Below are positions 7,011 to 46,036 of a stretch of DNA of 54,404 bases, piece after piece. The DNA lies in the IMG/VR virus record IMGVR_UViG_3300005466_000031, positions 1 to 54,404 of that record. The stretch is one strand, 5' to 3'. The notes under the pieces were generated by a model. The model had not been told where the DNA came from. It made no database searches and saw only the letters and a program-made list of their open reading frames with translations. The DNA is from a virus. Positions within the stretch are counted from its first letter, which is position 1. Each line of letters starts with the position of its first letter. The translations under genes and the position numbers were made by a program.

Positions 7011-7826
7011 GTGACTCGGCGAGAGCGGGATTCTGAGGGCGTGTGGGCCAAGATTATCCGGGCAGAGGAACACCTCGCAGCGATAAAGGCAGAGGTCGCT
7101 CTCTACGGGGAACTTGATCCATATGACCTGATTCGCGAGTTCAACGACGAGGGAACCGAATGCACCGTACGCCTCGTCATCTTGGAGGAACCGACTATCC
7201 GGCTCCCGCTTCTGATCGGTGACTTCGCCCACAATCTCCGCTCGGCCCTCGACCATCTCGCCGCGTGGCTCGTCGCCCGCAACAACGGAACGGTGACCGA
7301 AGAAACGACCTTCCCGATCCGAGTTGACCTCGTCAACAAGAGAGGCCGTCCGTGGTCCGGCCCTGTAACCATCACCCCGCCCGTCTCCGACGAAGCCATG
7401 GCAGTGATCGAGCCGTTGCAGCCGTACCACGGAGGGGACACGGCAGCGAGGAACAAACTTGCCCTGCTGCGCAGCATCAACAACGCCGACAAGCACCGCA
7501 ACCTCCTGGTCGCGTCCTCCTTCATGGCCGATGCAGATGTGGGCGTCTTCCTCTACGGGAAGCGCCTTGCCTTCCAGCACGTTACCGGTCGGTTCTATGA
7601 CGGCGCAGTATTCGCGGTCTACCAGTTCACTGAACCTATCCCCCTGAGCGTGCGGAACCATGTGCAAGTGAAGGCGTACGCCCACCCGCTCGTAACGCTC
7701 TCCGATATCAGCCTGCCAGGCCGTTATCCTGTCGTGGAGACGCTGACCGCGATCCTCGACTACGTGCGAGACGAAGTCGTCCGGCCCATCGAACAGGCCG
7801 AGGCGACGCGCGGACCGATCTTGTGA
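7011..7826 (+). CDS. HEPN-like protein (candidate defence or toxin-type moron)
   Basis: 271 residues, GTG start at 7011 (a six-codon ATG ORF lies just upstream at 6994). The core is LIGDFAHNLRSALDHLAAWL; RSALDH fits the R-x4-H motif of HEPN ribonuclease domains. LRSINNADKHRNLL follows in the middle. Proteins with this helix pair are widespread in bacteria and mostly uncharacterised. Base composition is visibly less GC-rich than in neighbours, and the gene stands alone between two hairpins, both signs of transfer. Nuclease activity is inference; it may be a non-catalytic relative. Confidence 0.6.
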   Translation: MTRRERDSEGVWAKIIRAEEHLAAIKAEVALYGELDPYDLIREFNDEGTECTVRLVILEEPTIRLPLLIGDFAHNLRSALDHLAAWLVARNNGTVTEETTFPIRVDLVNKRGRPWSGPVTITPPVSDEAMAVIEPLQPYHGGDTAARNKLALLRSINNADKHRNLLVASSFMADADVGVFLYGKRLAFQHVTGRFYDGAVFAVYQFTEPIPLSVRNHVQVKAYAHPLVTLSDISLPGRYPVVETLTAILDYVRDEVVRPIEQAEATRGPIL

Positions 7827-7855
7827 GTCGGGGCGTCTCATGACATCGCCCCGAC
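7827..7855 (+). terminator. Terminator of the HEPN-like gene
   Basis: GTCGGGGCG (7827-7835) pairs perfectly with CGCCCCGAC (7847-7855), directly after the stop codon and followed by CAAAAA. On the opposite strand it would end in a T-run, so it may also stop leftward transcripts. Confidence 0.65.
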
Positions 7856-7867
7856 CAAAAACCTGTC

Positions 7868-7935
7868 ACACCCTGCCTGTAGATTCAGGGTGTCAGCAAA
7901 TAGCGGCGCCCGCGAGGCTGGAACCTCCGGGCGCC
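7868..7935 (+). promoter_or_regulatory. Two further hairpins in the leader of the 7958 gene
   Basis: ACACCCTG/CAGGGTGT (7868-7875, 7886-7893) and GGCGCCCG/CGGGCGCC (7905-7912, 7928-7935, the latter extended inward by GAGG/CCTC). With the terminator at 7827 this makes three hairpins in about 110 bases before a small gene. They may be an attenuator, operators or remains of a mobile-element end. Confidence 0.45.
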
Positions 7936-7957
7936 TGGACCAAGAGGACGCAACCTC

Positions 7958-8290
7958 ATGGCCGAGGCCAAGGTAACACCCGCGCGCGACGCGGAACATG
8001 TCCGGCTCCTGCTCGACGTGCCCGAGGTTCGGGCGCTGGTCAGGGAGCTGGACGACGCCCGCTGGACGGGCCGCACGGGCTACGGCTCCCGTGCGCTGGT
8101 CGGCATGGCGTTCGTGAAGGCCGTGTACGCGCTGCCGACGTGGACCCGCACGGTGCGCCTCGTGCGCGACCATGCGGCGCTGCGCGGCGTGCGCGGCCTC
8201 GACCGGGTGCGCGTCCACGCGGACCTGACGATCCTCGCCCGCCTTGCCACCGCGCTCGCCAAGGCCAAGGCTGTGCCGCTCGCAGCGTAG
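7958..8290 (+). CDS. Stand-alone transposase N-terminal (DUF772-like) domain protein
   Basis: 110 residues, ATG start. LDVPEVRALVRELDDARWTG followed by GYGSRALVGMAFVKAVYALPTWTRTVRLVRDHAAL closely resembles the N-terminal domain of IS5/IS1182-type actinobacterial transposases (DUF772/InsH N-terminus). No DDE catalytic domain follows and the ORF ends cleanly. It is either a decayed element or a domesticated DNA-binding domain. It lies downstream of three hairpins. Confidence 0.65.
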   Translation: MAEAKVTPARDAEHVRLLLDVPEVRALVRELDDARWTGRTGYGSRALVGMAFVKAVYALPTWTRTVRLVRDHAALRGVRGLDRVRVHADLTILARLATALAKAKAVPLAA

Positions 8291-8295
8291 GCGGG

Positions 8296-8667
8296 TCATC
8301 GCGACCCTCGCGAGTAGCGTCGCGCGGCATGGGCGAGGAACTTCGGAAGGCGCAGGTACGCGACGCATTGGGTCTGCTCACCGCGATGCGCGACCAGCAG
8401 CCCGACACGCTGACCGCCTACCTGGCGGACACCAGCAGCCCAGCCGAGCAGGTGCAGCGCCTTCTCGGACTGGTCGGCGTCGCGAACCTGCTGGTCCAGT
8501 GGGTCGCGAAGGTCACCGGCAAGAGCGAGCGCGAGGTGTTGCAGGACTTGGCGCTCCTGATCCAGTGACGCCGGGGTGCGCGGCCCGAACAGTCGCTCAC
8601 CGATCCTGTCGGCGAACGCCGCTGCCTCGCGTACGTCGGCGATGAAGCGCGCCTCGTCTGGCGTCAT
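8296..8667 (-). CDS. Possible gene antisense to 8329-8568
   Basis: The ATG at 8667 overlaps the stop of the 8664-9461 gene as ATGA, the normal coupling in this genome. The first 37 residues (MTPDEARFIADVREAAAFAD) look like a genuine protein. The rest, to 123 residues, runs antisense through all of the 8329-8568 gene and looks like shadow sequence. Either a real convergent overlap exists or the true stop was lost. Confidence 0.4.
   Translation of the reverse strand: MTPDEARFIADVREAAAFADRIGERLFGPRTPASLDQERQVLQHLALALAGDLRDPLDQQVRDADQSEKALHLLGWAAGVRQVGGQRVGLLVAHRGEQTQCVAYLRLPKFLAHAARRYSRGSR
8315..8320 (+). promoter_or_regulatory. Candidate -10 box for the 8329 gene
   Basis: TAGCGT, eight bases before the ATG. 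No clear -35 box (GGGTCA at 8293-8298 is the nearest). Spacing fits the leaderless pattern seen elsewhere in this genome. Confidence 0.35.
8329..8568 (+). CDS. Small helical protein
   Basis: 79 residues, ATG start behind a -10-like box. Two helical halves: KAQVRDALGLLTAMRDQQPD and SPAEQVQRLLGLVGVANLLV, ending in a segment (TGKSEREVLQDLALLIQ) typical of small phage regulatory or adaptor proteins. No family recognised. It is the last rightward gene of this unit. Confidence 0.6.
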   Translation: MGEELRKAQVRDALGLLTAMRDQQPDTLTAYLADTSSPAEQVQRLLGLVGVANLLVQWVAKVTGKSEREVLQDLALLIQ

Positions 8668-9461
8668 GGCCGACCAAGCCGACGGGCGAGTGTTACCTCA
8701 CCCGTTTCGCCGGTCGAATCGCCGAACCCTCCAAGGGAGACCGGGCGAAGGTCGGCGACCGGACAGCCGCTGTTTACGTCGTCGCCGAACGGACGCCAGA
8801 CGCCGTTCCCGGCGACGCGCCCGAAGTACACCCCGAGCCGTCCGTCCCGGTGCGCCACCGGCTGGCCCGGCGTCAACGCGGCGGCGTCGCGGGCCAGCCG
8901 TTCCAGGTCTCCCTCGGAGTCGTCGTAGGTGAGGGCGGGCCCAGTCAGTGTCGTCGCGGGCAAGTCCACCGCGAAGTCTCCGCCCTCGGCTTCTCGCCGG
9001 AGCGTGCCCTGCCCGCCGTCCCGCGCTGCGGCCAGGTGCTCGCCGCGCTCGATGGCGTCGGCGATGAGGACGCTACCCGCCGCCTCGCGAAGCCAGGTCA
9101 CGACAGCGGCCCGCTCCTGCGCTGCCTCGCTGCCCTCCGGCACAAGCCGGGCCAGCGGACGGACGGGCACCCCAGCGTTGCTGGGTCGGACCGGTGTCGA
9201 GCCACTCCACCAAGTCCCATCGGCGTAGAGGTATATCTCCCCCACCGCGTCCTGAACCACGTCGCCCTGCTGCCACTCGGGCTCCGGCTCCTCGCGAGGC
9301 TCCGGGTCCGGCAGTAGTTCGGCGGGCAGGGCGACCCGGCGCTGGTACTCGTCGCGGAGCATGACGTCCTCGTCGCCGTCCTCCGGCTCGTCCGGCAACT
9401 CGACCGTCAGCCGGTGCCCGTTGAGCACCACCACGTCACCGACTGCGAAGCGTTCGCTCAT
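8664..9461 (-). CDS. Hypothetical protein with beta-rich modules
   Basis: 265 residues; the ATG at 9461 lies six bases after a -10-like box. Segments: an SH3/KOW-like start (RFAVGDVVVLNGHRLTVELP), an acidic Pro/Glu linker, a second small beta module (QQGDVVQDAVGEIYLYADG), a helical middle and a third beta module (VAHRDGRLGVYFGRVAGNGVW). The repeated modules of about 40 residues with GDVV starts suggest an adaptor or nucleic-acid-associated protein. Function unknown. Confidence 0.6.
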   Translation of the reverse strand: MSERFAVGDVVVLNGHRLTVELPDEPEDGDEDVMLRDEYQRRVALPAELLPDPEPREEPEPEWQQGDVVQDAVGEIYLYADGTWWSGSTPVRPSNAGVPVRPLARLVPEGSEAAQERAAVVTWLREAAGSVLIADAIERGEHLAAARDGGQGTLRREAEGGDFAVDLPATTLTGPALTYDDSEGDLERLARDAAALTPGQPVAHRDGRLGVYFGRVAGNGVWRPFGDDVNSGCPVADLRPVSLGGFGDSTGETGEVTLARRLGRP

Positions 9462-33224: not shown

Positions 33225-34195
33225 CCTCCCCTGCTCACCGTCACGGTCTCACGGATCGCGTCCGCCGCGCGTCTCGCCGCGCACCCGTCCAGCAGGTCGC
33301 CGAACAGGTCCGCCACCACCGCCCTGCGCCGCTCCCGGGCCGGGTCGGCGATCGACTCGCCGACGGCGTCCGCCAGTTCCCCCGGCCCGCTCACCCGCAG
33401 CCCCACGTCGGCATGGGACCAGAACCGCAGCCCGTGCTCCACGTTCCGCCGGTACCACGGCGCGTCCAGAACCACGACAGGGCGGTCCGTCGCGGCCCAT
33501 TCGTAGATGATCGAGCTGTTGTCACACACCAGGATGTCGGATCGGTCGAGCACCCGCCCGAAGTCCGGCTCGTACTCGGCGCCCACCCACTCCCAGGTCC
33601 GGCGCATCACCTTCTCCGCGCGCGGGTGACCGTGCCCGAGCAGTGTCCACCGGCTGTCCGCCGCCAGGCCCGGCAGGGCGGCGCGGTAGTGCGGCAGCGC
33701 GGAGCGGGTCTCCGGGACGAAGTCGGAGTCCCAGTGGAAGGCGACCGCCACCGTCGGGCGCTCCGGCATGCGGCGCGGCCACTGGTCGTCCAGTCGCGGT
33801 ATCCCGACGACGACGCTCGGGGTGCGCGGGTAGCGCGCCCGGTTCAGGTCGGCGGCCCGCTGCGTGGGGCACAGGAACAGAGCGACGTTCCCCCGCTGCG
33901 GCCCCCCGGCGAACGCCCCGTGCGGTCGCGTGTAGGTCTGACCGATGCCGTGCTCCATCAGGATCGTGGGCCGGGGGGCGACCCGACGGGAGTCCCAGAA
34001 GGAGGCGACAAGCACCGGGTGTCCGCGCCGGGTCGGCATCCCGACCGCATGGCCGTCGGGGAGCAGCGCGGCGCGGCTGTGCGCGACGGCGGGGGTGACG
34101 TAGAGGGTGCCGCGCTCGTCGGGGCGCAGGGCCTGCCAGACGGGCAGCAGGTGGTCGAGGTAGTGGCGCTCCGACGCGTAGGCATCAAGGCTCAC
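33221..34195 (-). CDS. TagF-like (CDP-glycerol-type) transferase
   Basis: 324 residues. The GTG at 34195 has a GTGGAG site and overlaps the EndoVII end by 11 bases. A GT-B-like C-terminal half: WTLLGHGHPRAEKVMRRTWE, RSDILVCDNSSIIYEWAATD, RPVVVLDAPWYRRN, LFGDLLDGCAARRAADAI. TILMEHGIGQTYT lies in the middle. These match teichoic-acid glycerophosphotransferases (Glyphos_transf). In a virion gene region it may decorate a virion protein or host wall polymer. Substrate unknown. Confidence 0.7.
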   Translation of the reverse strand: MSLDAYASERHYLDHLLPVWQALRPDERGTLYVTPAVAHSRAALLPDGHAVGMPTRRGHPVLVASFWDSRRVAPRPTILMEHGIGQTYTRPHGAFAGGPQRGNVALFLCPTQRAADLNRARYPRTPSVVVGIPRLDDQWPRRMPERPTVAVAFHWDSDFVPETRSALPHYRAALPGLAADSRWTLLGHGHPRAEKVMRRTWEWVGAEYEPDFGRVLDRSDILVCDNSSIIYEWAATDRPVVVLDAPWYRRNVEHGLRFWSHADVGLRVSGPGELADAVGESIADPARERRRAVVADLFGDLLDGCAARRAADAIRETVTVSRGG

Positions 34196-34682
34196 GGAGG
34201 TACTCCACTGCCACGGTGAGAATGTCCGCGTCGTCGTGGAGCATGCCGAGTCCTGTATTGCATTTGCTGCACAAGAGCCCACGGATGCGTCCCGATCCGT
34301 GGGCGTGATCCACCACGAGGCGCCCCTTGACCGCGTCCGTCTCGCTGATCCCACAGAGCGCGCACCTGTGACCCTGGGCAGCGCTGAGTGCGTCCCGCTC
34401 GGCCAACGTCAGCCCGTAGTGATCACGAAGCCGGGCACCCCGCCAGTTGGCCACCGCGCGGTCGGGATTCGCGCGAGCCCATCGTTTGGCTCTCGCGACT
34501 GTTCTGGCCCGAAATACCGGGTCCTGCTGCCGGACCCTCTCCCTGACGCGATGGCACGTCTTACAGGCGTACCATCGCGTCCCCGTGCGTGTTCCTCCAC
34601 GGACGCCGGTGTACCAGTTCTCCGGCGTCCGTGGATGCCCGCAGCTTCTGAAGATCACCTCATCCACGTACCGGGCGCTCAT
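34185..34682 (-). CDS. Recombination endonuclease VII-like HNH protein
   Basis: 165 residues, ATG overlapping the upstream stop (ATGA). EndoVII core: HRCALCGISETDAVKGRLVV, DHAHGSGRIRGLLCSKCN, TGLGMLHDDADILTVAVEYL. Cys pairs bind zinc and the His is catalytic. The N-terminal part is a Cys/Arg-rich DNA-binding module. It may resolve branched DNA before packaging or be a homing-type insertion in the cassette. Confidence 0.85.
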   Translation of the reverse strand: MSARYVDEVIFRSCGHPRTPENWYTGVRGGTRTGTRWYACKTCHRVRERVRQQDPVFRARTVARAKRWARANPDRAVANWRGARLRDHYGLTLAERDALSAAQGHRCALCGISETDAVKGRLVVDHAHGSGRIRGLLCSKCNTGLGMLHDDADILTVAVEYLREP

Positions 34683-35687: not shown

Positions 35688-35716
35688 AGGGTGGGCTACC
35701 GCAGCGACTTAGTCAA
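35688..35716 (-). promoter_or_regulatory. Weak internal promoter candidate of the neck cassette
   Basis: -35 TTGACT at 35711-35716, 17 bases, poor -10 CACCCT at 35688-35693, six bases to the ATG at 35681. The bases before the -35 box (TGTCGAGCGGGGCTTGAC) resemble the shared early element with one extra base. Confidence 0.35.
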
Positions 35717-36238
35717 GCCCCGCTCGACATTCTCTCCCGCGCGGGCACTGCCGGACAGGCGCACCAGCACCGCCCCCATCTCGGAGCGATCCGCCTCCAC
35801 CCGGTCCCCGAAGTCAGACACCGACCACAGCGAGACGTGATCCTCCGTCGGCGGCAGGTCCGGCCCGTTGGAGAAGAACTCCGCCGGGGTGCACACCACC
35901 ACCGGGCAGCGCACCCGGGACAGCAGCGCCAGCGCCGCCCCCTTTTCCATGTGCTCGATCACCTCCACCATCAGCACGAGGTCGTAGCGGCCCAGCACCT
36001 CGTCCGACAGCGTCAGTGCATCAGCGACCAGCACGTCGTCGTAGGCGGCACGCAGCCGGTCCGTGACATAGCCGGGCCACGCCTCCACTGCGTCCACCGT
36101 CACTGCCGGATCGACGTACTCCCGGAGCAGGCCCGCCGCCTTGCCCCAGCCCGGCCCCACGTCCAGCACCCGCGCCGGTTTCACCTCCCACACGAGGTGC
36201 AGGATCGACGGCCACAGCGCCAGGTTAGAGGTTGGCAT
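35696..36238 (-). CDS. SAM-dependent methyltransferase (class I)
   Basis: 180 residues, ATG at 36238, 14 bases inside the glycosyltransferase gene. Motif I is ARVLDVGPGWGKAAGLL, motif II-like VDAVEAWPGYV, acidic motif III DVLVADAL, and post-IV YDLVLMVEVIEHMEKG, as in Methyltransf_11/23 enzymes that act on small molecules or sugars rather than DNA. Coupling to the GT4 gene suggests it methylates the transferred sugar or its precursor (inference). Confidence 0.75.
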   Translation of the reverse strand: MPTSNLALWPSILHLVWEVKPARVLDVGPGWGKAAGLLREYVDPAVTVDAVEAWPGYVTDRLRAAYDDVLVADALTLSDEVLGRYDLVLMVEVIEHMEKGAALALLSRVRCPVVVCTPAEFFSNGPDLPPTEDHVSLWSVSDFGDRVEADRSEMGAVLVRLSGSARAGENVERGLTKSLR

Positions 36239-37193
36239 CGACCAGCCGCTGCAACGCACGCTCGAAGGTCTCGCACTCGGCGACCGGGTCGAGCGCGGCG
36301 CTGCGCGCGCGGGACGCTGCCGCCGCCTTCTTGTACGCGGTGGGCTTGTCCAGCCTCCTGATCGCCTCCACCCACGCACCGGGGTCGGCGCGGTCCGCGA
36401 AGATACCCGCCGGGCCGAGCGACTCACGCAGGCCCGGCGTCGGGTGGGCGATGGTGGGGATACCCGACGCGGCGGCCTCCACCGCGACCCGGCCCCACGA
36501 CTCGTAGTCCGACGGCATGAGCAGCACCCGTGTCGCCCCGTACACGTCGCGCATCGCCGGGGTGTTGTCGCGGATCGTCACGTTGCCCGGCAGGGCGGCG
36601 GGCACGACCTGCTGGGCGTAGGAGCCGCGCACCCCGAGGAACCGGTGGTCGGGAAGCCGTCGTGCCAGGTCGTAGAACACCTCCGCGCCTTTCGACAGCG
36701 ACAGGTTCACCAGCGTCAGGCACTCCCCCGGCGTCGTGCGGTAGTCCTCCGCCACCACGGGCGGGCGCACCACCACCGACTCGCCCGCCCACGCCGAGCT
36801 GTCCGCGATCCACTCGCTGTTGAACACCGCCAGCACCCCGGGCCGGGGGGTCACGCGGTGGTAGGCGAGCTGCCGGTCGTTGTGGACGATGTGCGCCAGG
36901 GGCTTGCGGTTCGCTATGGCCATGCTGCTCGCCGTGCGCGTGAGGTCCAGATGCGTGACGGCGACAGTGCACCAGCGGAACCAGCGGGCCAGTTCGTGGC
37001 GGGTGACCCCGCGCGAGTACGTGACCCCCCCGTGGACGTACTCCCGCTCCGGGGTGCGGGACAGCAGCACCCTCACCTCGTGCCCGTTGCGTACGAGGTG
37101 ACGGAGCAGCGTGTGGATCATCATCTCGGCCCCGGCGTTGTGGTGGGGGGGGGCCATGTGGATGACGGCGAGCACGCGCAGCGGCGGGGTCAC
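36225..37193 (-). CDS. GT4-type glycosyltransferase
   Basis: 322 residues. GT-B fold: N-terminal nucleotide-fold start (RVLAVIHMAPPHHNAGAEMM, IHTLLRHLVRNGHEVRVLLS), acceptor region, then the C-terminal donor domain with LTLVNLSLSKGAEVFYDLAR and the E-x7-E motif in SDYESWGRVAVEAAASGIP. These are signatures of retaining family-4 transferases. Its start overlaps the head-tail adaptor gene by four bases, so it is co-expressed with virion proteins. The likely target is a virion protein. Confidence 0.85.
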   Translation of the reverse strand: MTPPLRVLAVIHMAPPHHNAGAEMMIHTLLRHLVRNGHEVRVLLSRTPEREYVHGGVTYSRGVTRHELARWFRWCTVAVTHLDLTRTASSMAIANRKPLAHIVHNDRQLAYHRVTPRPGVLAVFNSEWIADSSAWAGESVVVRPPVVAEDYRTTPGECLTLVNLSLSKGAEVFYDLARRLPDHRFLGVRGSYAQQVVPAALPGNVTIRDNTPAMRDVYGATRVLLMPSDYESWGRVAVEAAASGIPTIAHPTPGLRESLGPAGIFADRADPGAWVEAIRRLDKPTAYKKAAAASRARSAALDPVAECETFERALQRLVDANL

Positions 37194-38017
37194 GGGCCGG
37201 TGTCCCGCGCCACCCGGGGACGACCGGGGACGTGGATCGTCGCGGGCCGGTGCTTCGGGTAGCGGCCGACGAACAGGTCCACCGAGTACACACCGAACCC
37301 GCCGGAGGCGACGATCGCCAGCGGGTCGATGAGCGCCACCTGCACGCCCTGGCGGATCATCGACGTGACCCTCGGCGGCAGGGCGCAGTCACCGCCCGCG
37401 CTGCCCTTCGCCAGTTCCAGCGCCAGATCGACGCAGGCCAGCACCCCGTCCGACGGCGGCAGGGTGCCGTAGGTGAACGTGACCTGCCAGGTGCCGTCCT
37501 CCGTGGCGGGCTTCGACAGGTCTTGGCAGCAACCGAAGCGCAGCAGCGTCCCGTCGTCCTTGCGGAGCCCCACCAGCCAGCGGTTGTCGTGGACCGTGTA
37601 CCACGCCGGGGGGATCACCTGGCCGTCGATCAGCACCTCCACGACGGAGGTCAGCGGTTCTCCGCCGAGGGTGACCTGTGACAGCCCGACGCAGGAGCAC
37701 TGCCGCGACAGCGGCATGTTGCACGCGCAACCACCCCAGGAGCGCTGCCAGTCCTGCGCCCAGCCGAGCGCGAAGGCGCCGTCGAGCACGGTCCCGTGGT
37801 AGGCGGGTCCGAACGCCGACCCTGCCCAGCGCCCGCACGGCCTGACCGTGTCCTCGCAGGAGCCGGGCCAGCGACCCCCTGTCGCCTCGTACAGCAGGTC
37901 GGTGGCAACCGCCAGCAAGTCCTCCAACGGCGCGTCGAGAGAGGCAGTGGGCCGCAGCCTGGCCACGTCGGCGATCTTCGCCCACGGGGAGCACGCCGAC
38001 TGGCAGGGCGCTGACAT
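37190..38017 (-). CDS. Head-to-tail adaptor
   Basis: 275 residues, ATG start. Features typical of actinophage head-tail adaptors: LLAVATDLLYEATGGRWPGS, SSVGLSQV-like Cys region (CNMPLSRQCSCVGLSQVTLG), VVEVLIDGQVIPPAWYTVHD, LRFGCCQDLSKPATEDGTW, LACVDLALELAKGSAGG. Follows the capsid block and precedes the neck genes, apart from the inserted cassette. Confidence 0.75.
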   Translation of the reverse strand: MSAPCQSACSPWAKIADVARLRPTASLDAPLEDLLAVATDLLYEATGGRWPGSCEDTVRPCGRWAGSAFGPAYHGTVLDGAFALGWAQDWQRSWGGCACNMPLSRQCSCVGLSQVTLGGEPLTSVVEVLIDGQVIPPAWYTVHDNRWLVGLRKDDGTLLRFGCCQDLSKPATEDGTWQVTFTYGTLPPSDGVLACVDLALELAKGSAGGDCALPPRVTSMIRQGVQVALIDPLAIVASGGFGVYSVDLFVGRYPKHRPATIHVPGRPRVARDTGP

Positions 38018-38026
38018 GCCCCGATG

Positions 38027-41000
38027 CTAGCGGACGGAGGCGACAGCGGGAGCCCCTGACCGGACAGTGCCCGGCGTGACCGTCGTGCGACGGCTGGTCC
38101 CGGAGGCCGGGTCGGTGTGTCGCGGGCTCGCCTCCGGGACCAGGCAGGTCCGGCCGCTGGCCAGGGTGAGGTCGCAGTGCCGGGGGTGACGGGGCGGGCG
38201 GGTCGCCGTCGCGGACCCGGTGATGGTGATGTGTCCGCTCGCACCGACCGAGACGACGGCACCGGCAGACCCGGTGAGGACGATCGTCCCGGTAGCGGTG
38301 AACGGGGCGGCAAGCACCGAGCCCGCGAGAACCAGGACGCCGGTCGCACCGATGTGCGCGGCGGCGATCGCCGACCCGGACAGGGTCAGGGTGCCGTGCG
38401 CGGACACCCGCGCCCGCGCCGTCGCGGCGCCACCCAAGGTGAGCGAGCCGGTGGCGCTGACCCTGGCCTTCGCCGTGGCGGTCCCCGTGAGCGTCAGGGT
38501 CCCGGTGGCACCGGCCGAGACGCTCGTCGTGACGGCACCGCCGAGCGTCACCGAACCCGACGCCGCGCCGGAGGTCGTAGCAGCGACCGCCCCGGCGACG
38601 GTGATGCTCCCGGCGGCGACGACCCGCCCGGCTGCCGTCGCCGCCGCGTTGAGAGTGAGCGCGCCGGTGGCTGCGCCGGACGGTGTGACGCTCCCGGAGC
38701 CGTCGAGGCTGATCGCGCCGGACGCGGTGACGGCGGCGACAGAGGAGGCCGTACCGGTGAGGAGCAGCGACCCGGACGCGGCGGCGTTCGCCGTGACCGT
38801 CACGGCGCCGTCGAAGGTCAGCGAGCCGGTCGCCGAAGCATCGCCCGACGCCGTCACGGTGCCGGTGAGGGTGACGAACCCGGTGGTCTCGCCGGAGTGG
38901 AAGGCGAACGCCGTCCCGTCGAAGTCCAGTGAACCCGTGGCGGACACGACGGCCTGGCCGGTGACGGTGCCGGTGAAGGTCAGGGCCCCGGTGACGCCGA
39001 GCACGACCCACGACGCAGCGCCGGTCAGGTCGAGGGAACCGGTGGCGGTCACGGTGGCGGAGGCCGATGCGGACCCGGCCAGGGTGAGGGACCCGGTAGC
39101 GACACCGGTCCACGTCGCGGCGCCGGTCAGGTCGAGCGACCCCGCCGCGCCGACGCCTGCCGCAGCGGTCGCCGCACCGGACAGGACGACCGCGCCCGTG
39201 GCGGCCGGGACGACCCACGCCGCCGCGCCGGTGAGGTCGATGGAGCCGGTCGCGGAGCCTGTCGTGGCCGCGACCGCAGACCCAGCGAGAGTCAGCGACC
39301 CGGACGCCGACGTATCGGCGGAGGCGACGACCGACCCGGTCAGGATGATCGAGCCGGTGGCAGTGCCGCTCGCGCTCGCCAACGACGCGCCCGCCACGTC
39401 GAGGAACCCTGCGGCGGACAGCGCGGCGCTCGCGGACGCCGACCCGGACACGTCGATGCTGCCGGTGACCAGCGGAACGAGCCAGGCGGCCGAACCGGTG
39501 AGGTCCAGTACTCCCGCCACGCCGACCTGCGCGGACGCTGCGGCCGACCCAGCCAGCTCCACCGTGCCGGACCCGCTGGCCGGGGCTGCGGGACTCGCCG
39601 ATCCTGCCAGAGTGAGCGACCCGGACGCGCTCCCGGGCGCGGCTGCGTCCGCGCTGCCTGCCAGGGTCAGCGACCCGGACGCGGCAGCCGCTGCCTGCGC
39701 GCCCGCAGAGCCGCCAATCTCGATGGCCCCGGTGACGGGGGCTACGGCGACAGCCGTCACCCCGACCGTCCACTTGACCGCGAACGCGGTCTCCGACGGG
39801 CCACCGGCCGCGCCCACGCCGGTGACGGTGCGGGAGTAGGTCCCGGCAGTGAGGGCGCGGTCGGAGTCGAACACCGCCACGTCAAGGTCGGTGCCCTCGG
39901 TGGTGTCCACCGCCTCGCCGCGCAGCACGTCCAGCGGGTCGGACGACGACAGTGCTGGCGGGGCCACCCCGGCGCTGGTGAAGTACACCGCCACCAGCGC
40001 CGTGACCAGCCACGCCGTGCCGGTGGTGGTCACGGGCGGGGTCGCGTGTGTGTCGGTGGAGTCCGGCTCGTCGCTCGACGCCGACACGTCAACCGGGCCT
40101 GCGTCGGCGTAGGCCACCACCACGCCGCTGAACGGTCCGCCCGCGCTCCACGTCCAGGTGTAGTCGGCGGGTTCGCTCGACGCGGTCCGTGTGTACACGA
40201 GGCTGCGGACAAGGTCTGTCAGGTCGCCGAGCAGCGTCCAGCCTGCGGGTGGGGTGACGGTGCTCGACGGCGGGGAGCCGAGGAACGCCAGCATGAAGTC
40301 GCCGTCAAGCACTCCGGTGGGCACGTCGAGCGTGAGACTGGTGCTGCTCGACGTCACCGCAGCGGTGGACGCCCCGCGGAACGCCCCGCCTGTCGGTGCG
40401 ACGAGCGCACCCGCGCCTGCTGACCCGGTGAGGGCCAGGGAGCCGGTTGCGCTGGCTGGGGTGGACTCGACCCCCGTCGCCGACCCAGCCAGGTCGAGGG
40501 ACCCGGCGGCGGACGGCGACGCGTCGGCGGCAGCCGACCCAGCCACGTCCAGCGAGCCGGTCGCCGACACGGAGGCCTGACCGTCGGCAGCCCCGCCGAG
40601 GGCCAGCGACCCGGACGACGTGCCCGGTGCGACCGCCTCTGTGCTCCCTGCGAGCGTCAGCGACCCGGCCACCGCAGGTACAGCCCACGCCGCCGACCCC
40701 CCCAGGGCCAGGGCACCGGACGCGGCGGCGGGAGCCTTCGCTGTGCCCGCTCCGCCCAGCGTCAGCGACCCGGACGGTGTCGCCGTCCAACCGGCCGTGC
40801 CGGTCAGCGTCACGGAGCCTGTCGGCTTCGCGGTCCACGCCGCCGACCCGGCGAACGCCAGGGAACCTGTCGCCGTGGTGGACGGTGTTGCCGCCCCGCT
40901 CAACGTCACCGACCCGGACGGGAGCGGCGTCCACGACGCTGCGGCACTGAACGTCAGCGAACCGGACGCCGACACGGGGGCGGCGGCGCTGGCAGACCCG

Positions 41001-41728
41001 GCCAGGGCGATCGAGCCGGTCGCCGTGGCCGGGGCGGGCGCCTGCCAGAGGGCGGTGATCCACGCCTTGGCGCCGGACCCCGCCGTCAAACCTGCGGTAA
41101 TCGCCGACGCAGCGACCCCCGTCTTCGACCAGGACGTCTGCGCTTGCGTGATGTTGGAGGCGCCGCTGCTCCCGGAGGTGCCCAGTGTGTTGCTCGACGT
41201 GACGCCGTTGGTCCAGCCGGACGGGTCTGTGTTCGTCACCGCCGCCGACGCGCCCTCCAACCCGAGGAACGCGACCAACGCGCAGTCGGCACCGGGGGTA
41301 GTGGGGGTAAGCGACGGTTCGACGGAGGTCGATGACGCCGCGACCTGCACCGGGGTCGTCGGGTCCGCCCCCGTCACCTTCCCGATCACTCCGGCGCGAG
41401 CGACCGCAGTCGGATGCGTGACGGTGACCGCCAGCACCCCGGCCGCGTACGCGGCAGTGATCTTCGCGTAAGCCAGGACCGCCCGCACGCCGGAGGCGCC
41501 GGAGCCGTTGGTGACATCACAGTTCGGCGGGATGACGAACGCGCCCACCGACCCGCCAGCGCCGGTCGCCGCGAAGGTCACCGCCCCCGCCGCCGGGTCC
41601 ATCGCGAAATAGACGACCACGTAGTCGCCGACGGCGAAGGCGTCGACGGTGTCCGTCAGGTTGAGAGTGGTGCCGCTGACCTTGCTGTTGCCGACGGTGC
41701 CGTTGACGGACAGGACGGGAACGGCCAC
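38027..41728 (-). CDS. Giant repeat protein, probable virion surface fibre or decoration
   Basis: 1233 residues. Layout: beta domain 1 (1-235), repeat block 1 (about 236-446, 12 units), beta domain 2 (about 447-665; ADYTWTWSAGGPFSGVVVAY), repeat block 2 (about 666-1182, about 29 units), and a short basic Pro/Arg-rich tail. Each unit of 16-18 residues follows (S/T)GSLTLAGSAxAxAxVxA. Alternating small and hydrophobic residues with a Gly turn suggest a beta-solenoid or stacked beta-rod. The two beta domains resemble each other (TLNLTDTVDAFAVGDYVVVY; LTLDVPTGVLDGDFMLAFLG). Ser and Thr are abundant. No enzyme motif. Confidence 0.75.
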   Translation of the reverse strand: MAVPVLSVNGTVGNSKVSGTTLNLTDTVDAFAVGDYVVVYFAMDPAAGAVTFAATGAGGSVGAFVIPPNCDVTNGSGASGVRAVLAYAKITAAYAAGVLAVTVTHPTAVARAGVIGKVTGADPTTPVQVAASSTSVEPSLTPTTPGADCALVAFLGLEGASAAVTNTDPSGWTNGVTSSNTLGTSGSSGASNITQAQTSWSKTGVAASAITAGLTAGSGAKAWITALWQAPAPATATGSIALAGSASAAAPVSASGSLTFSAAASWTPLPSGSVTLSGAATPSTTATGSLAFAGSAAWTAKPTGSVTLTGTAGWTATPSGSLTLGGAGTAKAPAAASGALALGGSAAWAVPAVAGSLTLAGSTEAVAPGTSSGSLALGGAADGQASVSATGSLDVAGSAAADASPSAAGSLDLAGSATGVESTPASATGSLALTGSAGAGALVAPTGGAFRGASTAAVTSSSTSLTLDVPTGVLDGDFMLAFLGSPPSSTVTPPAGWTLLGDLTDLVRSLVYTRTASSEPADYTWTWSAGGPFSGVVVAYADAGPVDVSASSDEPDSTDTHATPPVTTTGTAWLVTALVAVYFTSAGVAPPALSSSDPLDVLRGEAVDTTEGTDLDVAVFDSDRALTAGTYSRTVTGVGAAGGPSETAFAVKWTVGVTAVAVAPVTGAIEIGGSAGAQAAAAASGSLTLAGSADAAAPGSASGSLTLAGSASPAAPASGSGTVELAGSAAASAQVGVAGVLDLTGSAAWLVPLVTGSIDVSGSASASAALSAAGFLDVAGASLASASGTATGSIILTGSVVASADTSASGSLTLAGSAVAATTGSATGSIDLTGAAAWVVPAATGAVVLSGAATAAAGVGAAGSLDLTGAATWTGVATGSLTLAGSASASATVTATGSLDLTGAASWVVLGVTGALTFTGTVTGQAVVSATGSLDFDGTAFAFHSGETTGFVTLTGTVTASGDASATGSLTFDGAVTVTANAAASGSLLLTGTASSVAAVTASGAISLDGSGSVTPSGAATGALTLNAAATAAGRVVAAGSITVAGAVAATTSGAASGSVTLGGAVTTSVSAGATGTLTLTGTATAKARVSATGSLTLGGAATARARVSAHGTLTLSGSAIAAAHIGATGVLVLAGSVLAAPFTATGTIVLTGSAGAVVSVGASGHITITGSATATRPPRHPRHCDLTLASGRTCLVPEASPRHTDPASGTSRRTTVTPGTVRSGAPAVASVR
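38183..39733 (-). repeat. Repeat block 2: about 29 units of 54 bases
   Basis: Most units are 54 bases (18 codons), some 48 or 51. Units share TGSLTL-GSA at the protein level but differ in many bases, so the array is old or selected for diversity. Edges are approximate. Confidence 0.75.
40391..41023 (-). repeat. Repeat block 1: about 12 units
   Basis: Units of 48-60 bases. Several contain Trp at the same place (SAAWTAKP, TAGWTATP, AASWTPLP). Same consensus as block 2. Edges are approximate. Confidence 0.75.
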
Positions 41729-41763: not shown

Positions 41764-42135
41764 CTACGACGCGGAGTACGAGATCGCGCCCGCCGCGATG
41801 GTGATGGACGCCGCCGTCACGCTGGACGCCAGCGCGGCGCCGATGGCGTAGTTGCCCGCGCCGTACGTGGCCGACGACCACTGCCCCACATGGGTGACCG
41901 CGACCGTGCCGAGGGTGGAGAACGTGAGCGCCCCCGAGTTGGTCATCGCACCGCCCGATGCGGTGTTCCACGACGTGGCCTGCCGGGCGTAGGAGCCGCT
42001 GTTGGCGTTCTCGTTGGCGCCGGTGGTGCTCGGGGACGCGGTGTGCAGCGCCGTGTCGGGGATGACGTTGGTGGAGCCGACGCCCGCGAGCCCGTTGAGG
42101 GCCGCATTCGCGCCCGCTGTGCCGAGAAGCGCCAT
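41764..42135 (-). CDS. Small beta-rich virion protein (decoration-like)
   Basis: 123 residues, ATG. Ala/Ser/Thr/Gly-rich strands: SGALTFSTLGTVAVTHVGQW, SSATYGAGNYAIGAALASSV, TAASITIAAGAISYSAS. Proteins ending this way occur as head decoration or minor virion proteins in actinophages. Lies between capsid-region genes and the giant repeat protein. Confidence 0.6.
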   Translation of the reverse strand: MALLGTAGANAALNGLAGVGSTNVIPDTALHTASPSTTGANENANSGSYARQATSWNTASGGAMTNSGALTFSTLGTVAVTHVGQWSSATYGAGNYAIGAALASSVTAASITIAAGAISYSAS

Positions 42136-42138
42136 CGG

Positions 42139-42552
42139 TTAGCCCTCCTTGCTCGGGGTCGCACGAGCCGCGTCGAGAACGGCCTGCGGACTGGAATCCT
42201 TCTCGGGCGCCGCGTGCTCGTGAACGAGGTCCGCGAACTCGGCGCGCGGCGTGCCGTCCTGGTTGTGCGTCACCTCCGGCGGGATGTGCACGAACGGCTG
42301 GTCCGGATCGTGCAGCGGGTGCCCGTCGGCGGCGTGACGTTCCCCGATGGCGTGGGACACGAGCAGCTCGTGACCGATGTCCACCTCGATGATGTCCGGG
42401 CTCACGTCGTAGGTGGTGCCGTCCGGCAGCGTCACCGGGCCGCGAATCCACGGCCCGGTGTAGACGAGGGCCTTCGTGGGGTCGTCGGAGCGCACGTCGA
42501 ACAGCGGCGTGCCGTCCTCCTTGTCGGCGAGCCTCGTGTAGATGATCGTCAT
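42139..42552 (-). CDS. Hypothetical capsid-region protein
   Basis: 137 residues, ATG. RLADKEDGTPLFDVRSDDP, then VEVDIGHELL-like (DIIEVDIGHELLVSHAIGER), His/Asp/Pro-rich middle and a charged tail. No family recognised; probably virion-associated by position. Confidence 0.55.
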   Translation of the reverse strand: MTIIYTRLADKEDGTPLFDVRSDDPTKALVYTGPWIRGPVTLPDGTTYDVSPDIIEVDIGHELLVSHAIGERHAADGHPLHDPDQPFVHIPPEVTHNQDGTPRAEFADLVHEHAAPEKDSSPQAVLDAARATPSKEG

Positions 42553-42561
42553 GACGGGCTC

Positions 42562-43209
42562 CTAGGAGGCGAGGGTCTGGTAGCCGCACACACCGGCGGG
42601 CAGGGTGTCATCCAGGAACCACGCGCCCGGCTCCGACACCTCCTGCGGCCAGTCCGCCATCGGCCCGGTGCCGAACTGCGGGTTACGCACCGCCGTGCCG
42701 GTGAGCTTCAGGCGCAGCAGGTCGTTGCCGAACGTCTGGTCTGTCACCCGCCAGGTGGTCTTCTCGTAGGCGAAGCGCATGTACAGCGGCACCCCGCCCT
42801 CCACCGCCTGCGCGGTGTTGTCCCACGCCTTCGCCCACGTCTCGATCGAACAGCCCTCGTACGGGCCTGCGGACGCGGGGCGAGGCTCGAAGCCGACGGT
42901 GCGGCCGTCCTTCACGATGAGCGTGCCGCCGGTCATGACCTCGGCGAGCTCCGCGTCGAGCTGGCACAGCTCGGTGGTGAGCGTCCACTTCTCGATCGTC
43001 GGGTCGCCCTCGTAGGAGAAGCACGACGTGTCGCAGCCGTTCTTCACGTTCACCGAGGTGCCAGCGGTCTCCTGCGGGGTGGCGACGAACGACAGCGGCG
43101 CCACCGCCTCGTACAGCCCGCTGGCGCCGTAGTCGAACCCGGCCCCGGAGGTGAGCCGGGCGGCGCGGATCGCGCAGATGAACGCGGCGGAGTAGCACGG
43201 CTCGGTCAT
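42562..43209 (-). CDS. Structural protein (possible major tail protein)
   Basis: 215 residues. CYSAAFICAIRAARLTSGAG, VNVKNGCDTSCFSYEGDPTI, EKWTLTTELCQLDAELAEVM, TTWRVTDQTFGNDLLRLKLT. The strand-rich pattern and the GDPTIEKW-type turn could fit a tail-tube or head protein, but the gene lies in the capsid block far from the tail genes. No major tail protein is otherwise identified. Confidence 0.5.
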   Translation of the reverse strand: MTEPCYSAAFICAIRAARLTSGAGFDYGASGLYEAVAPLSFVATPQETAGTSVNVKNGCDTSCFSYEGDPTIEKWTLTTELCQLDAELAEVMTGGTLIVKDGRTVGFEPRPASAGPYEGCSIETWAKAWDNTAQAVEGGVPLYMRFAYEKTTWRVTDQTFGNDLLRLKLTGTAVRNPQFGTGPMADWPQEVSEPGAWFLDDTLPAGVCGYQTLAS

Positions 43210-44194: not shown

Positions 44195-46036
44195 CTAGGA
44201 CGCCGTCGTACCGCAGATCGCGGTGGTGTCCACCGCGTCCGCCACCGAGCCGTCCGCGCACAGCTCCTGCCGCACCCAGACCGAGCCCTTCGCCGGGCCG
44301 ATGTAGGCGTGGCCCTGGAATGACTCGGAGAACACGCGGGCGTTGTTCTTGGAGTTGAGCACCGAGTCCCGCACCAGGCCCAGGTTCAGCTCCGGCGCTT
44401 CGAGCTGGATGTGCGCGCCCGGCACCGACAGGCCCCACTCGGCGTGGGTGGGCAGCTCGGCGACCGGGTCGCCGTCGTCGGCGACCTCCGGAATCTGCCC
44501 GGCCCCGGTGGGGGAGTCCACGTAGAACGTGGGCACGATGCCGCGCGAGCGGAACAGCGCCATCAGCCGCTCGACGGAGAAGTCCCAGGAGGTCTCGCCG
44601 GGGAACATGGAGCGCAGCACGTCGATCCGGCAGGCCTCGATCAGCCAGTCGGGGCCCAGCCACACCAGCGGGGAGTCGAGCGCCGGGTTACCGGCCTCCA
44701 TCCGCTGCTGGGCGCGGATCGCCGCCGCCGCCAGGTCGAGCGCGGCGAAGAAGTCCTTGGCCGCGCCAAGCGCACGGGCGCGGGTGTTGAACACCGAGTC
44801 GGCCTTGATCGCGTCGAGCAGCAACGTCTCGGTGCGGCGGTCGTGCGCCACGTCCGCCAGCTCCGTCGCCTGCGCGAACAGCTCCGGGTAGGACATCTGG
44901 CCGAGGTTGCCGTACTCGATGCAGATGCCGACGGCGCTGATGAGTTCCTCGCGGAACTCGTCGCAGTCGATGTGCCAGCACGGCTTCGTCTCGTCGCCGT
45001 CCTGCGCCGCGATGTCCTGCGCGTTGGTCCAGTCGAACACCGCGTCCCCGGCGTTGTTGCCGACCGGGATGTCCGACAGGCTGAACGGGCTGGCGAAGCG
45101 AATCCCGGCCCGGGGGGCCTGCATGGAGATGGTGTAGCCGTCGCGCACCGGACGACCGCGCTGGGCGACGGTGAGCCGGTCGTAGTACGGGGTGGTGATG
45201 CCGCAGAACCCGCCCGCCGCGACCATCGCCGCCGGGGTCTGGCGCAGGAACTCGCGGGCCCGGTCCCCGACCTCGGTGCGGGCCGCTTCCAGGCGGGCGG
45301 CGTTCACGGTGGGGTCGTCGGTGAGAGTCCGGTCCGCCGGGTACTCGCGGACGGCGGAGGCGACGACGACCTTGTCCTCGCTGGTGCCCCGGCCGGGGCC
45401 GAGGTTGCGGGCCCGCTCCTTCATGAGTGCGCCGAGAGTCTTGCGGTCGGTGATCTCCGCGCCTTCGCGCACGATGCCGGGGGCACCGGCGGCGGCGACG
45501 AGCGAGATCCCGTGCCGGTCCGCGACCGGGGTGGTCCCGGCGGGCTGCATGGCGTTGAGCGCGGAGAGAGAGGCACGGCGGGGCCGGGGAGCGGCGGAGG
45601 CGGCGACCGGCTCGGCCGTGGCCTCGGCGGTCGTCTCCGTCGTCTCGGTCGTGGCCTCCGGCTCGGCCGGTGCGTCGCCGGTCTCGGCCTCGGTCTCGTC
45701 CGGGGTCTCCTCGGCGGTCTCGGCGGGCGGGTTCACCTCGGCGAGCAGGGCGGCGGCGTCCGCGTCGAGCTGCGCCTGCGCCTCGTCGCGACGGGAGGTC
45801 TCCGCCGTCACCGCCACGATGCCGTCGCGCAAGGTCCGCATCTGCGCGACGGTGTCCGCGCTGCGCGGCTCCGCGTTCGCCGCGTCCATCTGCGCGCGCA
45901 GCGCCGCGTCCAGCTCGGACAGCTCGTCGGCGGACAGGGCGGCGAGAGCGTCGTTCAGCTCGGTCTCGGCGGCGGTCCGCTCGTCGTCGGTGGTGGCTGC
46001 GGCGAGGCGGTTCAGCAGGGCGAGGATCGCGTCCAT
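44195..46036 (-). CDS. Major capsid protein with scaffold-like N-terminus
   Basis: 613 residues, ATG with GGAAGG upstream. Residues 1-150 are acidic and coiled-coil-rich (LLNRLAAATTDDERTAAETE, AEETPDETEAETGD), a delta domain expected to act as scaffold and be removed by the protease. The HK97-like body follows: ITDRKTLGALMKERARNLGP, GISFASPF-like RAGIRFASPFSLSDIPVGN, DVAHDRRTETLLLDAIKADS, LVWLGPDWLIEACRIDVLRS, SVWVRQELCADGS near the end. Confidence 0.85.
   Translation of the reverse strand: MDAILALLNRLAAATTDDERTAAETELNDALAALSADELSELDAALRAQMDAANAEPRSADTVAQMRTLRDGIVAVTAETSRRDEAQAQLDADAAALLAEVNPPAETAEETPDETEAETGDAPAEPEATTETTETTAEATAEPVAASAAPRPRRASLSALNAMQPAGTTPVADRHGISLVAAAGAPGIVREGAEITDRKTLGALMKERARNLGPGRGTSEDKVVVASAVREYPADRTLTDDPTVNAARLEAARTEVGDRAREFLRQTPAAMVAAGGFCGITTPYYDRLTVAQRGRPVRDGYTISMQAPRAGIRFASPFSLSDIPVGNNAGDAVFDWTNAQDIAAQDGDETKPCWHIDCDEFREELISAVGICIEYGNLGQMSYPELFAQATELADVAHDRRTETLLLDAIKADSVFNTRARALGAAKDFFAALDLAAAAIRAQQRMEAGNPALDSPLVWLGPDWLIEACRIDVLRSMFPGETSWDFSVERLMALFRSRGIVPTFYVDSPTGAGQIPEVADDGDPVAELPTHAEWGLSVPGAHIQLEAPELNLGLVRDSVLNSKNNARVFSESFQGHAYIGPAKGSVWVRQELCADGSVADAVDTTAICGTTAS

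Follow-up and report, generated by a model that had tools for sequence, protein, structure and literature searches.

A phage protein built from two arrays of 18-residue repeats and encoded beside the head-tail adaptor is a candidate head- or neck-attached beta-rod

The viral record IMGVR_UViG_3300005466_000031 (54,404 nucleotides, referred to here as the window) derives from a phage whose host is actinobacterium-like, and its minus strand contains an open reading frame of 1233 codons (38027..41728, with a GTG start at 41728) whose translation includes two arrays of short tandem repeats. A preliminary description, made from the DNA letters alone, had noted about 41 repeats in this protein, and we count exactly 41, in blocks of 12 and 29. 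The genes of this repeat family usually sit among head genes, so that the protein is probably a rod protruding from the particle. With moderate confidence, and from sequence comparisons, we favour its interpretation as an accessory beta-rod attached to the head or neck, an adhesin or a decoration, anchored by its N-terminal domain.

The protein has five segments. An N-terminal beta domain (residues 1–233, 41030..41728), which aligns with N-terminal domains from relatives, is followed by repeat block 1 (12 units, residues 237–446, 40391..41020), a middle beta domain (residues 447–665, 39734..40390) recognised by tblastn and by predicted strands in its first half, repeat block 2 (29 units, residues 666–1180, 38189..39733), and a non-repetitive tail of about 53 residues (1181–1233, 38030..38188) that is rich in Arg, His and Pro. 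Both blocks were mapped by unit counts and autocorrelation, and the repeat interval first reported, 38183–41023, essentially equals the two of them. An antisense artefact of a 539-codon open reading frame on the plus strand is rejected as an explanation of the reading frame, since those neighbouring genes that could be identified lie on the minus strand too and the protein pattern recurs in independent relatives; the GC content by codon position (0.65/0.70/0.89) does not decide this question by itself. The N-terminus, MAVPVL, is similar to the AVP starts of two relatives (L050 and L054; L numbers denote related loci and G numbers their contig records, G000 being the window). Pfam and PHROG searches matched no family to any part of the protein, including the N-terminal domain.

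The repeat period is real, and the units of 16–18 residues initially proposed are better described as 18-mers with occasional departures: 28 are of 18 residues, six of 17, five of 16, and one each of 19 and 20. Their consensus is T-G-S-L-T-L-A-G-S-A-T-A-x-A-S-V-S-A, and among the 18-mers Gly2 is invariant (28/28) and Gly8 nearly so (27/28). Autocorrelation of block 2 against shuffled sequences peaks at lag 18 (z = 13.5), lag 36 (z = 10.1) and lag 54 (z = 5.3), with a weak periodicity of six residues (lag 6, z = 4.0). The protein has no match to the Pfam hexapeptide-repeat model of left-handed beta-helices, and the glycines, falling at positions 2 and 8 of the unit, form no Gly-X-Y triplet period of the kind found in collagen-like fibres. 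Mean pairwise identity between units is 43% in protein and 56% in DNA, and units next to each other resemble one another no more than units far apart do (0.430 versus 0.426); the array is therefore old, and recent expansion by tandem duplication of DNA is rejected.

Within the unit, even positions are occupied by Gly, Leu, Val or Ala, and odd positions by Ser, Thr or charged residues. In the window units, 21 charged residues are at odd, outward-facing positions and none at even, inward-facing ones; counted over 187 units from 24 loci, 81 are at odd positions and 5 at even ones. This bias persists at positions 9–18, which played no part in the definition of the unit. A constant coil length, in/out alternation and, in the window, the lack of inward charges are features expected of a beta-solenoid. 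AlphaFold2 modelling of nine units with 18 aligned rows gave a solenoid with two strands in most units (mean predicted local distance difference test score, pLDDT, 82; predicted template modelling score 0.78), and the PDB structures nearest to this model in a Foldseek search are mostly beta-solenoids, none of them significant (best E 0.1, tapirin). A single-chain beta-solenoid is the leading model for the arrays, albeit not a settled result.

The N-terminal domain appears to be separable from the rods. Three further genes, L174 (5995–9081), L175 (5986–8844) and L176 (5995–7572), encode N-terminal domains 69–75% identical to that of L050 joined to entirely different C-terminal parts: a Gly-rich region in L174, an array of AGAGAV 18-mers in L175, and longer PQPFRPVTVYxR repeats (PQPFRPVTVYxRxPH...W) in L176. 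The L174 and L175 genes (in G021 and G022) end 65–80 bp before the adaptor gene. A constant domain, with interchangeable rods and a constant genomic place, is what would be expected of a virion-docking domain, and we infer that this domain docks the protein on the virion; in the repeat protein it probably serves for anchoring or display. By tblastn (best E 2e-6), the middle domain has relatives within the minor tail proteins of Rhodococcus phages. The suggestion that the two beta domains are themselves related is upheld in part: both can be aligned to N-terminal domains from relatives (25% mutual identity in alignment A3), and L021 has the same domain-array-domain-array layout, but direct similarity by BLASTP is weak (E = 0.063).

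Relatives were found through a back-translated DNA pattern in IMG/VR. Chains of 5–24 units are present in about 20 further viral contigs, whereas shuffled proteins never gave more than two, and most of these relatives have a beta domain followed by an array. A profile of the unit matched 23 of the 27 contigs examined (some of which supplied the profile) and one of 396 actinobacterial genomes, where the match is a phage contig binned in a metagenome-assembled genome; at this sensitivity the family is therefore essentially viral. A second back-translated pattern, run over 84,980 bacterial and archaeal genomes, returned 68 stretches with one convincing member, L148, a phage contig in a Frankiales metagenome-assembled genome, and the profile had no match in eleven other actinobacterial genomes from which these stretches came. 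The single match among the 396 genomes is in this same metagenome-assembled genome. We consider this an uncatalogued and essentially phage-only repeat family, judged from sequence matches, that Pfam and PHROG leave blank. A related-loci search with the whole repeat protein found no relatives. Searches of known phages by tblastn with the repeat protein, its N-terminal domain, L100, L102 and L021 also returned nothing, although low-complexity masking by BLAST means that members could still exist among cultured phages. Four candidate members were discarded as different repeats, L139 and L136 being hexapeptide look-alikes and L081 and L067 collagen-like tail proteins.

The number of units varies by whole units among homologues, as had been anticipated and as the comparison of unit number between related phages bears out. 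L050 has an insertion of 70 residues, corresponding to four units, relative to L104 and L094, and L054, L042 and L066 differ in steps of 18 residues, among other insertions and deletions. One relative, L020 (6544–9513), has its array fused to an apiosidase-like glycosidase (PF13204, E 1.7e-28) and a PF12904 domain, and has a weak, sub-threshold match to FapA. The 147,685-base contig of L045 (G005) contains two separate array genes, at about 7.8–12 kb and at 139.3–139.9 kb. Arrays in L036, L057, L062, L100 and the window (38030–38188) end in short tails rich in Arg, Trp or His, and some array tails hold repeats of 10–12 residues of their own, such as RATWDAGPPGRAWTAGP in L062.

Read along the minus strand, the gene order in the window is the major capsid protein (44195..46036; phrog_777, E 4e-56), which is similar to actinophage major capsid hexamer proteins; a 321-residue protein of phrog_779, at a position annotated as capsid pentamer in some related phages; the major tail protein (42562..43209; phrog_792, E 1.6e-15); proteins of 137 residues (42139..42552; no Pfam or PHROG match) and 123 residues (41764..42135); the repeat protein; the head-tail adaptor (37190..38017; phrog_783, E 5.5e-42); a group 1 glycosyltransferase (36225..37193; PF13692, E 1e-13); and a methyltransferase (35696..36427; PF13489, E 1e-6) whose start is uncertain and which overlaps the glycosyltransferase gene. 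The major tail and adaptor genes border a variable slot. In the closest relative, L002, the head block flanking the slot is 96% identical in DNA, and the repeat protein is replaced by unrelated proteins of 479 and 89 residues (7261–8998). Among cultured relatives, EMoore has a hydrolase, a small gene and an esterase between the major tail and adaptor genes, AnClar has a polysaccharide-deacetylase-like protein, and in Kozie, GTE6, Hans and Maih the two genes are adjacent and the slot is empty. Because L002 and the cultured phages carry other genes or none at this place, the slot is an accessory cassette. The 479-residue protein of L002 has the N-terminus VASVNGQTGAVVL and a C-terminal domain that gives the impression of a lectin type.

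A location near the adaptor recurs in the family. The repeat gene lies directly before the adaptor gene at L036, L148/L058, L066 and L092 (G003, G009, G012 and G016), and in these and the window it is 0–62 bp upstream. In G006 (L173/L050) it is between the maturation protease and the scaffold and major capsid genes, the placement in G014 (L084) is similar, upstream of the major capsid and adaptor genes, and in G008 (L057) it directly precedes a major capsid gene of the window's own family, phrog_777. L041 has it before neck or connector genes. In L062, L100 and L021 it is before terminase, or terminase and portal; these are weaker cases because a gene before terminase could end another module. 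Location in a head or connector module thus holds for the window, G003, G009, G012, G016, G006, G014, G008 and others, across different capsid families, with G013, G015 and G017 as exceptions. The preliminary description considered the position unusual for a fibre, and this holds in part: the gene does lie after the major tail gene and before the adaptor gene, but the place is an accessory slot in this type of phage, and other members are in head modules. The accessory slot together with the head modules of the relatives argues for a head- or neck-associated appendage. In L036 (4919–6178) and L148 (4142–5401) the capsid genes have a C-terminal part matching major-tail-protein families (phrog_10909/117), possibly an immunoglobulin-like extension, and both phages also carry the repeat rod.

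On this reading the repeat protein is an accessory of the virion surface, encoded with the head genes, and would most likely dock through its N-terminal beta domain on the capsid or the head-tail junction. The two arrays, of 12 and 29 units of 16–20 residues, would form rigid rods of beta structure; most likely each is a single-chain beta-solenoid in which every unit makes one turn, and at 0.48 nm per turn they would extend about 6 and 14 nm. They would act as spacers for the middle beta domain, whose role would be contact with the host surface or with glycans on it; the kinship of this domain to minor tail proteins and the glycosidase fusion in L020 are consistent with such a surface rod. The protein, which would not be needed for assembly, is exchanged between phages as a cassette, and its rod changes length by gain or loss of whole units.

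Several results weigh against this interpretation. Neither Pfam and PHROG searches nor comparison of the A2 and A3 alignment profiles with PDB sequences gave any meaningful similarity, including to a known capsid-docking or decoration domain, and no Foldseek match in the PDB reached an E of 0.001. Modelling bears out a solenoid or stacked rod, as first proposed, only partly, since a second AlphaFold2 job on the middle domain with four units left the units unstructured (pLDDT ~56) and did not reproduce the solenoid; the first half of the middle domain formed beta strands (pLDDT ~80). Pratt et al. 2025 (PMC11795689) also document that AlphaFold2 turns perfect repeats into confident yet unrealistic solenoids, for which charges pointing inward are a warning sign, and this bias tends to weaken the nine-unit model, although in contrast to those perfect repeats the window units are diverged and inward charges are absent. 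The in/out alternation and the whole-unit indels nevertheless stand with that model on the side of a rod, short of proof. As to location, the L088 gene is beside tail-spike genes, those of L082 and L097, on two contigs (G013 and G017), lie 30 and 22 kb away from the major capsid gene, and several relatives are on contigs that are too short or cannot be placed. Finally, presence of the protein in the virion is something that we infer.

The same role in the virion could be played by a different fold, a three-chain shaft resembling the triple beta-spirals of adenovirus and reovirus or some other oligomeric beta rod, and this is the alternative to which we give most weight, though still an unlikely one. 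A unit of 16–20 residues in which the Gly turn is invariant, residues alternate and loops vary in length suits fibre-shaft repeats as well, and phage fibres are often trimeric, which counts in its favour; the single-chain solenoid predicted with fair confidence points the other way, but is weak evidence given that only monomers were modelled. Somewhat less probable is attachment as a neck whisker or tail fibre instead of a head decoration, as might be read from the position of the gene between major tail protein and adaptor, the relationship of the middle domain to Rhodococcus phage minor tail proteins, and the tail spike near L088; in L173, L084 and L057, however, the gene lies within the head module, on the upstream side of the capsid gene.

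About as doubtful as a tail fibre is the notion that the arrays are disordered or loose mucin-like spacers, rich in Ser, Thr and Ala, that a neighbouring phage glycosyltransferase modifies into a glycan coat. Their composition (29% Ser plus Thr, 26% Ala, and 31 charged residues of 725) and the unstructured units of the second AlphaFold2 job would fit, as would the glycosyltransferase and methyltransferase genes following the adaptor gene and, in L066, a glycosyltransferase gene two genes beyond it. Mycobacteriophages are reported to glycosylate capsid and tail-tube proteins, according to Freeman et al. 2023 as cited in PMC12363180. A disordered spacer would not be expected to show strict in/out alternation and an invariant Gly, however, and L002 has glycosyltransferases without a repeat protein, which also weakens the idea that the window enzyme is specific to the repeat protein. 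A phage glycosyltransferase near a repeat gene is present in the window and L066. The window enzyme is a possible virion-glycosylation enzyme, and from its proximity and the richness in Ser and Thr, glycosylation of the repeat protein is a possibility also for a structured rod. We regard it as quite improbable that the protein acts outside the virion, as a late-expressed cell-surface or secreted product for host-surface modification or superinfection exclusion. Some accessory genes within structural operons are indeed non-structural; this gene is recurrently coupled to adaptor and capsid genes, and inspection by eye, without a predictor run, shows neither a signal peptide nor a membrane segment in a protein starting MAVPVLSVNG.

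In its role the proposed head- or neck-attached rod resembles T4 Hoc, T5 pb10, N4 gp17 and phi29 gp8.5, which are accessory and elongated, the first three being beta-rich with immunoglobulin folds; Hoc, pb10 and gp8.5, proposed to attach to cell surfaces via carbohydrates, enhance such binding (PMC7602432). These are chains of immunoglobulin domains or a coiled coil without sequence match to the repeat protein. Capsid accessory proteins of actinophages, Rosebush gp17 among them, are likewise encoded among structural genes but are not described as tandem-repeat rods (PMC7150772). Beta-solenoids such as the tapirin C-terminal domain, ice-binding proteins, autotransporters and FapA share repeats of about 18 residues with a small or hydrophobic inward face, but no sequence relationship. 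The Rhodococcus phage proteins Madraxi gp26, Shagrat gp22 and REQ1 Orf79 share a 'PAGWT' beta domain with the middle domain (31–33% identity), but their genes follow the tape measure gene in the tail module, and Shagrat gp22, the only one of the three translated, has no repeat arrays.

More tentatively, there may be a phage-specific class of head-anchored beta-solenoid fibres in which one docking domain accepts interchangeable rods (GSLTL 18-mers, AGAGAV 18-mers, Gly-rich and other), length evolves by whole turns, and enzymes encoded next to the adaptor possibly add glycans. If the protein is on the head, the family would add a type of rod to phage head appendages beyond immunoglobulin chains, coiled coils and collagen. 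With length in countable units and a docking domain that apparently accepts different rods, natural variants would make roles of head fibres testable, among them host search, sticking to surfaces and glycan shielding. The 18-residue unit and a gene often located before the adaptor also provide an annotation rule for large phage proteins left blank in Pfam and PHROGs.

The 123-residue protein encoded directly upstream of the repeat gene belongs to PF23140 (podophage GP4 fiber I gp80) and phrog_240 ('head protein'), a hint that the cassette encodes fibre or head accessories; this is the family of the neighbour and not of the repeat protein, whose N-terminal domain has no similarity to it. Beyond the adaptor gene, L002 has a different glycosyltransferase, an FkbM methyltransferase and a second glycosyltransferase, such that this cassette varies along with the fibre slot. 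An endonuclease VII gene (phrog_2914) is present at 34185–34682 of the window, inside the structural block.

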